Assembly (NCBI GenBank): GCA_964035015.1
Contig: OZ035997.1
Span: 15,285,459-15,349,458, forward strand
Source of the DNA: Corallium rubrum
Taxonomy: Eukaryota > Cnidaria > Anthozoa > Scleralcyonacea > Coralliidae
Reading direction: 5' to 3'
Length of the DNA stretch: 64,000 bases
Both the position numbers and the translations under genes were made by a program. Positions 11,101-14,100 of this stretch are shown here, one piece after another. The notes under the pieces are model-generated. The model ran no database searches and was not told where the DNA came from. It saw only the letters and a program-made list of their open reading frames with translations. Every line of letters starts with the position of its first letter. The stretch's first letter is position 1.

Positions 11101-14100
11101 CGGACCCTTGGCGGTGTCGTGTGAACATCAATCTCGTACCCAGAGCCTGCGATCCTTTTGGTCAGTACCAAGGAACGGAGGCTATGGGAAACTCCGATGA
11201 AAAAGTCCCCAAATCGGGGCCTTTGGTCCCAGTCCTCTGCTTCCCAGTTCCTTATAATTTGTAACTGTCATATAGATGATCGTTCATTAGTCCGAAGACT
11301 GGGGAAATATTTGTTTACCGATGAATAAAATCAACATATTTTACAAGGCACTCGACAAAGTATTTCGTGTAAGAATGGCCATTCTTTGCTTATAATTACT
11401 GACCCGCGTCAAATTCCATTGTTCTCTGTCTGCATTATATCAACGATTTCAGGCTGTTTTAGGAAAACGGCGACGGTCCTTTTTGGTAGCGGGGAAATTA
11501 TCAGGGGTAATTATAAACGTACTAAACTGGCACACTGCAATATTAAAAATATTGCAGCCAGCACACTGCAATATTAAAAATATTGCACCCAGCAGTAAAA
11601 AAACAAGCTAAAAACAGTCTTCCTCATAATTATTAGATGAATCTACAAGCTTACTCTTGATTTTACCAATATAAAAAATTATGCGATTGTACACAACAAA
11701 ACAAGAACACAATTCCATAAACAGGACATATTTTATATTATAAATAATTACACAACATCTGCACTAAATAACATCATATCGGCAGTCACCATTTTTAAAG
11801 CATTCATTTATACGACACAACGTCTTAGTGCAGCCTGTATTAATTACAAGCGATTGATCACAACATAAGTCAGACACGTCATTTTCAGTATTTTTCTTTA
11901 AACATATTTTCTTTTCACCTTCCGTATTCACTTCAACCTTACGTAAATCGGAACCTTGTAATATCTCACTCGCTTTTCTTTTAATTGACGTCGAAGTACA
12001 TTTATACGCCTTAACCCCATCAGATGACCGGTGACCAGTCGTCTCCTGAATAACTTGTTCTGATATTCCCGCATTGTACAATCTTGTAGCGCAACTACGC
12101 CGAAGAGAGTGATTTGTAAAATGCCCTTCAAACCCGGCATTCTTCATAATATTTTTCACCACATTTCCTAACGTTTCCCTACCCACAGCTTTTTTGTAAT
12201 ACCAAATATCACCATTTGGCTTTGCCAAAGCTCGCAAATAGAACGCTTTATCGCTGATTTCCTTTGGAACATGAGATAAATATTTCTTATAAAGCTCAAC
12301 TGGACAACGAAGGGGATTTTCTAAATTCTTATATGCCCGAACAACTTTTCTTTTGATACGCAAATGGGCTAACCCCCCGTTATTCGTCTTGCTGACATCT
12401 TCCGTATACTGCAAATATTCAGACCCAAATTCGTCAACTTGTAGGGATAGTTGCGAGTTTTTACTTCTCAAATTTCTATGCTCTTGACCAGCCCTAAGCG
12501 CAAATTGTATACCGAACACATAAACTAACGTATCTCTAAGCAAACTTGCCCCGCTGCTTCCTAAGAAACCGTGCTCCCACAAATAATTTTCTTGCTCTTC
12601 CGATATAAAATTAGCTTGTGCGACCTCTACGCCTAATCCTTGCCCTGCTCTTTCTTTCAATACAAAATTTAACGCCGAATTTAACTCTCTAAATACACAA
12701 CTTGTCTTATCAATTAAAGTCACATTACGCTTATATTCCACGCGTAAATACGTTTGAATGCTACTTAACATCTCATATATAGTCTTGCCGGGATACTCTT
12801 TCCCGTCTACTTTTCTCACTTCTGCAACGAAACGTGCCAGGAAATAATCCAATTCATCGACAGACATTTCTTCTAAGCTTGCATTCATCACTGGTTCTCC
12901 ACTACAGGTGAGATTAGTCACACCATGATTTCTTTCAGTCCGCCACTCTTCAAATGTTTTCAACACCCAACGCCACTTCTTTCGACTAGCTTCCGAAGTC
13001 CAACTTTGTTTGAACTTTTCGCACTCCAACAACGTTATCGGTTTTCGAAATCTATTTCCTGGTTACAAACGACACATTTCATTACATTAAAAACTCAACA
13101 AGCAAAAGAACATACTAAACTAGCGAACCAACCTTTCGACAATTTTAAATTCGCCACGTGCTCCGTACCTTTTCTATCTTCATCAGTCTCTTCACTTCCC
13201 TCCTGTGCATTCTCATTCTCGAAAAGAACAGCTAGTTCATGAACGTCAACGTCTCTTTCTTCGCTTAGCTTTCGCTTATTTGTCGACGACTGTGTGATAT
13301 AAAAACTTTCATCTTCTGAAGAATCTTCCATCTCTATACCACGCCACTAGCTAAGCCTAACTAAATTGAATAAATAAAATTATTTGTTCTCTTATAATAT
13401 GCAAATGTTCTTCCAAAGTCCACATCAATAACAATCAAACAAAACAAAACACGCAAATTCTATAACTAATCTAAAATTCTGACAGTGACATTCAAAAACT
13501 TTCCTACTGAAATTGTAAACAATACATCCTGTTCATTGTTTGGGAATGGGGTGCCTGAAATCGTTGATATAATGCAGACAGAGAACAATGGAATTTGACG
13601 CGGGTCAGTAATTATAATAGATAATTACTTCGGCCAAACGGCATTATTGAATATATTGCAGCCAGCTTCGGGCTACGCCCTCAGCTAGCTGCAATATATT
13701 CAATAATGCCGTTGGCCTCAGTAATTATCTATTAATTAATTTCTCCTAATCGTTGACCGGACGATTTGAGCCGTAGGTTTTATTTGTCCGCGTCGGCCGT
13801 GATCGGCTCGGCTCAGCTGCTCAGCTAAGGAATTGTACTTTCTGTTAGGAATTTTGACTAAATTATATCGACCTTGCATTCTCTAATGTTATTTTTAAAG
13901 TTCTGAGACGAAACTGCGAATAAATACGAGACGAATCAAACGACAGATGTTTGTTGGCTATTTAATCAGTACACAGCATTGAAATACTGGATGGTACACC
14001 ATGCAGAAGGTTCCGGAGTCGTGTGAACACCTTCAAACCGTCGTTAGATTGTAACGGATTCGTGTGAACGAGACCACATTTTACAGCTTATTTTCTATAC

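Follow-up and report, generated by a model that had tools for sequence, protein, structure and literature searches.

What bounds a Crypton, and how such an element might move, are the questions raised by a locus in the coral Corallium rubrum. We analysed a 64,000-nucleotide stretch of its genome (assembly GCA_964035015.1, contig OZ035997.1, positions 15,285,459 to 15,349,458; hereafter the window), in which a tyrosine recombinase (YR) gene is enclosed by perfect inverted repeats. According to Kojima and Jurka (2011; PMC3212892), no terminal repeats were found in animal Cryptons, and Crypton mobility is poorly known, partly because the boundaries are hard to recognise. Comparison of copies defined both ends of the window element, and we conclude with high confidence that its anatomy is that of a Crypton with a self-complementary end resembling the internal complementary region (ICR) of DIRS retroelements. 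The features, numbered by window position, are:

11392..13735, no strand assigned: whole element, 2344 bp, starting ATAATTAC and ending with the last base of CTATTAA; bounded by flank divergence in 27/27 two-repeat copies
11392..11454, plus strand: A, terminal inverted-repeat arm on the left, 63 nt of which lie in the element
11529..11591, no strand assigned: direct repeats with an internal dyad (CTGCAATATTAAAAATATTGCAG), two units in the window copy
11764..13058, minus strand: recombinase exon 2, stop codon at 11764-11766
13059..13132, minus strand: intron of 74 bp, GT-AG, phase 1, predicted from sequence
13133..13331, minus strand: predicted recombinase exon 1, ATG at 13331
13553..13615, minus strand: A', internal inverted copy of A, 63/63 complementary
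13616..13620, plus strand: inner spacer, 5 nt, AATAG
13621..13728, no strand assigned: terminal hairpin, 108 nt, with outer arms B_in at 13621-13629 (ATAATTACT) and B_out at 13720-13728 (AGTAATTAT)
13729..13735, plus strand: tail CTATTAA, 7 nt, predicted crossover spacer of the circle junction

Self-comparison of the window returned an inverted repeat of 65 nt (11390-11454 and 13553-13617), 100% complementary and with 2098 nt between its arms, in agreement with the first-pass annotation, which had placed perfect 64-bp inverted repeats around the recombinase. Because the element starts at 11392, the repeat inside it measures 63 nt, and 11390-11391 are host bases that match the right arm by chance. 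Pieces of the repeat of 22 and 30 bases each occurred exactly twice in the window (3 or fewer mismatches) and in none of 100 shuffles. From left to right the element consists of the terminal arm A, the YR gene, the inverted copy A', 5 nt, the hairpin with its B arms and the 7-nt tail, after which host sequence resumes. The hairpin fold (13605-13740) had z-scores of -17.0 on the plus strand and -14.8 on the minus strand, and 0/200 shuffles were equally stable. Joined, the two ends are predicted to read AGTAATTAT-CTATTAA-ATAATTACT, with 11 perfect pairs (TCAGTAATTAT/ATAATTACTGA) around 7 bp. The stretch A'-5-B_in is an inverted near-copy of this predicted circle junction, B-7-A, with a spacer of 5 instead of 7 bases.

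These boundaries come from copies in the 474-Mb genome to which the window belongs. When it was searched with the 64-bp repeat, the best 40 of 156 candidates were scored and 40/40 were perfect. The window and 27 fetched places formed a set of 28 copies, 27 of them with both repeats (the L035 stretch stops before the second). In 27/27 the left flank was host sequence up to ATAATTACTGACC (window 11392), the right repeat was followed by the hairpin and the tail, and the flanks diverged outside both ends, which places the element end at base 13735. A few hairpins carried small changes; the tail was exactly CTATTAA in 25/27 copies and had small indels in L024 and L029. The first-pass annotation had taken the right repeat for an element end and asked whether further copies end at the same repeat: the left end was common to the 27 copies, but none stopped at the right repeat, which is internal. 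Its notion of an element type with recombinase sites marked by terminal inverted repeats (TIRs) survives in part, in that the repeat belongs to the element in 27 copies and probably marks such sites; the repeats are not symmetrical TIRs. Two other placements of the right end were discarded. A right end at the right repeat with a TTATAA target was rejected, since copies continue through hairpin and tail, and a separate miniature inverted-repeat transposable element (MITE) at 13618-13737, landed beside the element, was rejected, since the palindrome occupies the same place in 27/27 copies. When the genome was searched for the hairpin, 28 of the best 40 of 126 candidates lay at the window or fetched loci, 7 within about 1 kb of recombinase matches and 5 (C298, C39, C37, C8 and C1) at neither.

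The 22 uninterrupted copies, a count that omits the five interrupted or deleted ones (L013, L021, L024, L027 and L028), were 99.06-99.92% identical in pairwise comparison (median 99.5%), and on this similarity the family is apparently young and moved recently. The longest open reading frame (ORF) ranged from 210 to 432 aa among these 22, with 432 in the window copy and 419 in four others. Most other uninterrupted copies were about 25-50 bp longer than the window copy, and we infer that the difference lies in the CTGCAATATTAAAAATATTGCAG direct repeats at 11529..11591. L021 is an internally deleted copy of 819 bp that keeps both ends and is a candidate non-autonomous derivative.

The YR gene lies on the minus strand between the repeat arms. 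Its 432-aa ORF (11764-13062) matched Pfam DUF3504 (E 9.6e-31), Phage_integrase (4.6e-13) and QRICH1 (1.4e-11). The 74-bp intron predicted in the first-pass annotation (13132-13059) has GT...AG ends, and splicing would join the frames into a protein of 497 aa. In this predicted protein the catalytic residues are R255, HxxR at 383-386 (H383/R386), H409 and Y418, the pattern previously read as a DUF3504-style tyrosine recombinase (R...HxxR...H...Y). DUF3504 was also matched by 7/7 members of an alignment (A1) that combines the window ORF with six others, drawn from five further loci. Among solved structures, the best sequence match was QRICH1 (9hjt, 1.4e-12), followed by a XerC-like recombinase (0.0016) and IntI4 (0.0078); XerA (0.24) was not significant. 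An AlphaFold model built from seven aligned ORFs was modest (pLDDT 63, pTM 0.45), and Foldseek searches with it returned Cre (1.2e-9) as well as XerH, Tn1549 Int, IntI (2a3v) and QRICH1, consistent with a YR fold.

Within 11392-13735 the recombinase is the sole ORF longer than 130 aa. The ORF list thus holds no element ORF of a size for reverse transcriptase (RT) or RNase H (RH), for RepHel or for a DDE transposase; among the smaller ORFs (up to 121 aa), the domain search covered the 83-aa ORF that holds exon 1. The window's RT ORF (7773-10565) lies outside the element. No relatives of the recombinase were found in viral contigs, prokaryote genomes or phage records, and exact pieces of the repeat and hairpin were absent from viral contigs. 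By its enzyme and predicted gene content the element is a Crypton; the affinity seen is with QRICH1 and DUF3504, and membership in CryptonA is not claimed.

A protein search of the genome with the recombinase gave at least 120 matches (97 of 871 candidates scored), and members of twelve groups, formed by identity and ORF length, were fetched. The layout was present in nine families, namely the window family and eight diverged DUF3504 Crypton families whose recombinases are 30-38% identical to that of the window. The eight are:

Trio (L038-L040): layout present; tail 7-10 nt, as the copies also share the next ATA
f526 (L042, L043): layout present; tail exactly 7 nt by copy comparison
f493 (L044, L045): layout present; tail 7-10 nt, as the copies also share the next ATA
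f501 (L047): layout present; tail by analogy
f514 (L051): right end only; tail by analogy
C20 (L052): right end only; tail by analogy
f480 (L054, L055; left end from L048, L049): layout present; tail exactly 7 nt by copy comparison
f518 (L056; left end from L050): layout present; tail by analogy

An inner spacer of 5, a tail of 7 and hence a difference of 2 fitted 9/9 families. Comparison of copies established the tail of 7 for the window family, f480 and f526 and bracketed it at 7-10 for the trio and f493; the other four tails were assigned by analogy. The B arms formed Watson-Crick pairs at columns 0-5 in 9/9 families, at columns 6-9 in 8/9 and at column -1 in 7/9. Across the nine families, columns 0, 1, 4, 5, 6, 7 and 9 each used two or more Watson-Crick pair types, a pattern of covariation. 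Where a single locus holds both ends, as in five families, A and A' paired perfectly over 63, 16, 12, 13 and 16 nt with differing sequences, and a strand through the predicted circle junction folded into one long stem with small internal loops, leaving the surplus unpaired bases in the 7-nt spacer. The first-pass annotation had also considered a Crypton caught in a chance foldback; this is unlikely, because the layout is inherited within the family and recurs in other Crypton families.

A natural junction of the predicted type was found in L044, where a shorter f493-type element (A at 668, A' at 1186-1197, ACTAC, hairpin, GTAGTTA) directly abuts the A of the full element (1359), giving arm-GTAGTTA-TTATTATATGG. 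The stretch L044:668-3527 thus holds two f493-type elements head to tail with zero bases between them. In the hairpins of L038-L040, L042, L043, L044, L047 and the window (13621-13728), nested segments alternate with short stretches that do not pair, in many cases TC/TC or TCG/CTC, as though the hairpins had grown through repeated palindrome insertion at the tip; inside the trio the central segments vary in length. One further locus pair, L053/L057, fits the 5/7 spacing if its arms start one base later, and was excluded from the nine families.

Insertion left one-sided junctions. Host bases always stood at the left and the element tail always at the right: CTATTAA preceded A in 0/27 copies, whereas the tail was retained at 27/27 right junctions, 25 of them exact and the other 2 with indels. 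Six sites could be compared with unfilled repeats or tandem arrays, and at four (L026, L027, L031 and L034) insertion was free of gain and loss, host resumption being judged by eye with the element taken as ATAATTAC...CTATTAA. L010, L016 and L025 lie in simple or short repeats, where flank comparison was not decisive. The window element sits in a host repeat (flanks 11262-11391 and 13736-13865); the joined flanks matched at least 40 places (best 40 of 390 candidates) at 92-93% identity over nearly their full length. One fetched relative of this host repeat carries a 7-base insertion near the target site.

A short direct repeat, ATA, stands at both termini, and no DDE-like target duplication accompanied insertion. 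The left ATA starts the element in 27/27 copies; a right ATA follows the tail in 21/25 scored copies, the exceptions being L012, L014, L030 and the window copy, which has extra bases there (L024 and L029, with tail indels, were unscored). Duplication of ATA by a DDE enzyme was judged unlikely, as the right triplet is not ATA in 4/25 young copies while the left ATA is invariant. The host target preference is weak and two-fold symmetrical, TTAT-N6-ATAA. T occupied position -9 in 21/27 copies (p 3.4e-7) and A position -8 in 17/27 (2.7e-4); A, T and A occupied +1, +2 and +3 in 22, 22 and 25 of 25 (p 1.4e-9, 2.1e-9 and 4e-14), all p values being uncorrected and for single columns picked after the table was seen.

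How would such ends be used? We propose that the element's own tyrosine recombinase moves it through a circular intermediate, in which the joined ends would form a YR site of arm B (AGTAATTAT), the 7-bp spacer CTATTAA and arm A (ATAATTACT). A would pair with A', and B_out with B_in, on the circle strand that carries the hairpin on its 5' side, and this pairing would itself be the function of the inner A'-5-B_in copy. Folded, this strand would present the recombinase with a complete site, duplex over almost its full length, whose active strand has two surplus bases at the crossover. It would then be swapped, as a single strand, with a short site in the host (TTAT-N6-ATAA), and replication would fix the product. 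One-sided junctions are the outcome to be expected if exchange is limited to the strand that is cut where the spacer meets A. Transposition by YR recombination through a circle seems to us the most likely route, probably via a folded single strand, and we lean towards this account without holding it firmly; the single-strand step on its own falls a little short of an even chance.

The alternative closest to this proposal is ordinary double-stranded YR transposition, in which a double-stranded circle with a B-7-A site integrates like Tn916-type elements, the inner A'-5-B and hairpin serve as additional arms for recombinase binding or are remnants of an ancient inverted duplication, and folding plays no part. 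A double-strand exchange is expected to put donor and target spacers at either junction after repair or replication, whereas the tail was seen at none of the 27 left junctions and at all 27 right ones. Nor would it account for A/A' and B-arm pairing being kept while the sequences change among families. On its side, the host target is a symmetrical short-arm site, and the joined ends alone, with perfect 11-bp inverted arms around 7 bp, have the general shape of a YR site as given by Kojima and Jurka (PMC3212892), a pair of 11-13 bp inverted repeats with 6-8 bp between them. We consider it unlikely, though a serious contender. A further reading, in which some other transposon, DDE or Helitron2-like, owns the ends, captured a Crypton gene and moves it in trans, has precedents: MarCry-1_FO is a Mariner fused with a Crypton (PMC3212892), and the Helitron2 5' terminal repeat has an internal 3' partner beside a hairpin, with compensatory changes (PMC3627910). 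Yet no second ORF above 130 aa accompanies the recombinase, the domain search of smaller ORFs being confined to the 83-aa one; layout and YR gene stay together across nine families whose proteins have diverged to about 30% identity; and insertion lacks a DDE-like target duplication. We consider capture highly improbable.

Coincidence would mean that an accidental layout looks conserved because palindromes abound in the genome, the families share ancestry and detection was selective. It drew support from a generic layout detector, which scored 6 hits among 25 overlapping control chunks taken from the window and 0 among 40 block shuffles, and from the fact that some hairpins were found by pairing-based patterns. 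Against it, the ends in the window family, the trio, f526, f493 and f480 came from copy comparison and show the register difference of 2, and the arm sequences differ with compensation; we give chance very little credence. The layout by itself is not diagnostic, because the detector is unspecific in a palindrome-rich genome, and the argument accordingly rests on independently known ends, not on detection.

Several observations weigh against the proposed account. No circle, transcript or activity was observed, and the circle, the folded substrate and the one-strand exchange are themselves inferred. Two of the six comparable sites were not clean: the right flank of L020, in a 58-bp array, contains 4 surplus bases at a distance of six bases from the element, and the window copy's own junction has 5 extra bases (T left, TTAA right) relative to five fetched unfilled repeats. 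All nine families come from one palindrome-rich genome. The hairpin is 3' of the gene in f493, f480 and f518 and 5' in the other six families, and with this flip in gene orientation the active strand would not always be the coding strand. The detector that was so permissive in control chunks also missed the accepted f501 copy, L047. Pairing is inflated where hairpins were chosen by a pattern needing six pairs (L051, L052) or a scan needing seven (f501, L047), the other hairpins coming from copy ends or self-comparison, and f480 and f518 share arm sequence and are not independent for covariation. L037 has the right-end layout with just an 8-bp repeat to its left end. Neither L036, a 73% relative in which only an inserted f518-like end was seen, nor L046, a presumed f501 relative, showed the layout for its own element. 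In L041, an f526 copy, A' and the hairpin's inner half are lost, which may be a sign that the hairpin is unstable.

Set beside known systems, the element combines features of several. In DIRS1-like elements, according to Piednoel (2011; PMC3266345), two ICRs near the 3' end match the two termini and adjoin each other at a circular junction of 3 bp, and insertion makes no target duplication. The coral element likewise has a YR, an inner region near one end that is complementary to both termini (A' with A, B_in with B_out, adjacent to each other) and whose halves copy the circle junction, a 3-bp junction and no target duplication. Relative to that description (PMC3266345), it differs in lacking, on its ORF list, RT, RH or methyltransferase (MT), in having a junction copy of 5 against 7 nt rather than a 3-bp overlap, and in forming a direct hairpin between the right half and the terminus. 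As in the CryptonA elements of the 2011 description (PMC3212892), there is one YR gene with DUF3504 affinity, no reverse transcriptase and no long target duplication, and as in fungal and oomycete Cryptons of the same source a short direct repeat, here ATA, stands at the termini. Unlike CryptonA as described there, the coral elements of nine families combine a terminal repeat with an inverted copy further in and a hairpin at the end. We treat this departure as a variant, because the lack of terminal repeats in CryptonA is a reported absence, not a mechanism.

Integron attC sites, according to Bouvier (2009; PMC2727003), recombine as a folded bottom strand with an unpaired central spacer and extrahelical bases, through exchange of one strand. 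The proposed coral site would similarly be a folded one-strand YR substrate with unpaired bases in central spacer and stem, the fold being experimental in attC and inferred here; unlike an integron (PMC2727003), there is no cassette array or attI, and an entire transposon would have its two ends joined at the folded site. Helitron2, as described in 2013 (PMC3627910), shares asymmetrical terminal inverted repeats, the left terminal and the right subterminal before a 3' hairpin, with compensatory changes; its enzyme is instead an HUH rolling-circle transposase, and it has no site of the B-7-A type. On sequence evidence, the one-sided junctions in 27/27 coral copies fit the single-strand exchange of integrons. 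In CTX phage, attP(+) is a folded single strand of the incoming element on which XerC/XerD act, but there a bacterial phage uses host recombinases. The coral element is accordingly placed as a Crypton by enzyme and gene content, DIRS-like at its ends and perhaps attC-like. Tentatively, and with the odds somewhat against it, we suggest that such Cryptons are a eukaryotic transposon class in which a YR acts on a folded single strand via an inverted copy of its own circle junction, a counterpart of integron attC, and that the DIRS ICR was inherited from or is shared with them and is not a reverse-transcription device. No description of a Crypton with such ends (terminal inverted repeats, hairpin, ICR) was found in titles, abstract openings and passages of the literature; Repbase and subscription papers lay outside this search, and an earlier Repbase description is possible.

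Elsewhere in the window, a tandem repeat with a 33-bp period (6912-7541 and 10570-10675) flanks the RT ORF mentioned above, which is on the minus strand and resembles that of a long interspersed nuclear element (LINE). Two near-identical inverted ORFs lie at 44487-46163 (minus) and 46632-47522 (plus), the longer of which appears by eye RT-like, with a C-terminal part resembling a GIY-YIG domain. Inspected by eye, two related ORFs at 24276-24917 and 53281-53931 (both minus) resemble the first exons of genes for ENaC/ASIC-type channels and may stem from a gene duplication. Rfam placed a tRNA gene at 20500-20571 (plus).

The layout gives Cryptons recognisable ends, in the order A, A', 5-nt spacer, hairpin and 7-nt tail. 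Their recombinases also matter beyond transposition, as the vertebrate DUF3504 genes KCTD1, ZMYM2-4 and QRICH1 derive from Crypton recombinases according to Kojima and Jurka (PMC3212892). The anatomy ties Cryptons, structurally and in a concrete way, to DIRS retroelements, which have been proposed (PMC6681497) to stem from a Crypton combined with a Gypsy-type RT. It also suggests that an ICR does not need reverse transcription. Since the circle junction is predicted base by base, the mechanism can be tested with oligonucleotides. The ability of both ends to pair with an inside copy of the junction they would form, seen in several Cryptons that are only distant relatives, suggests a specific and testable route by which these elements may move.

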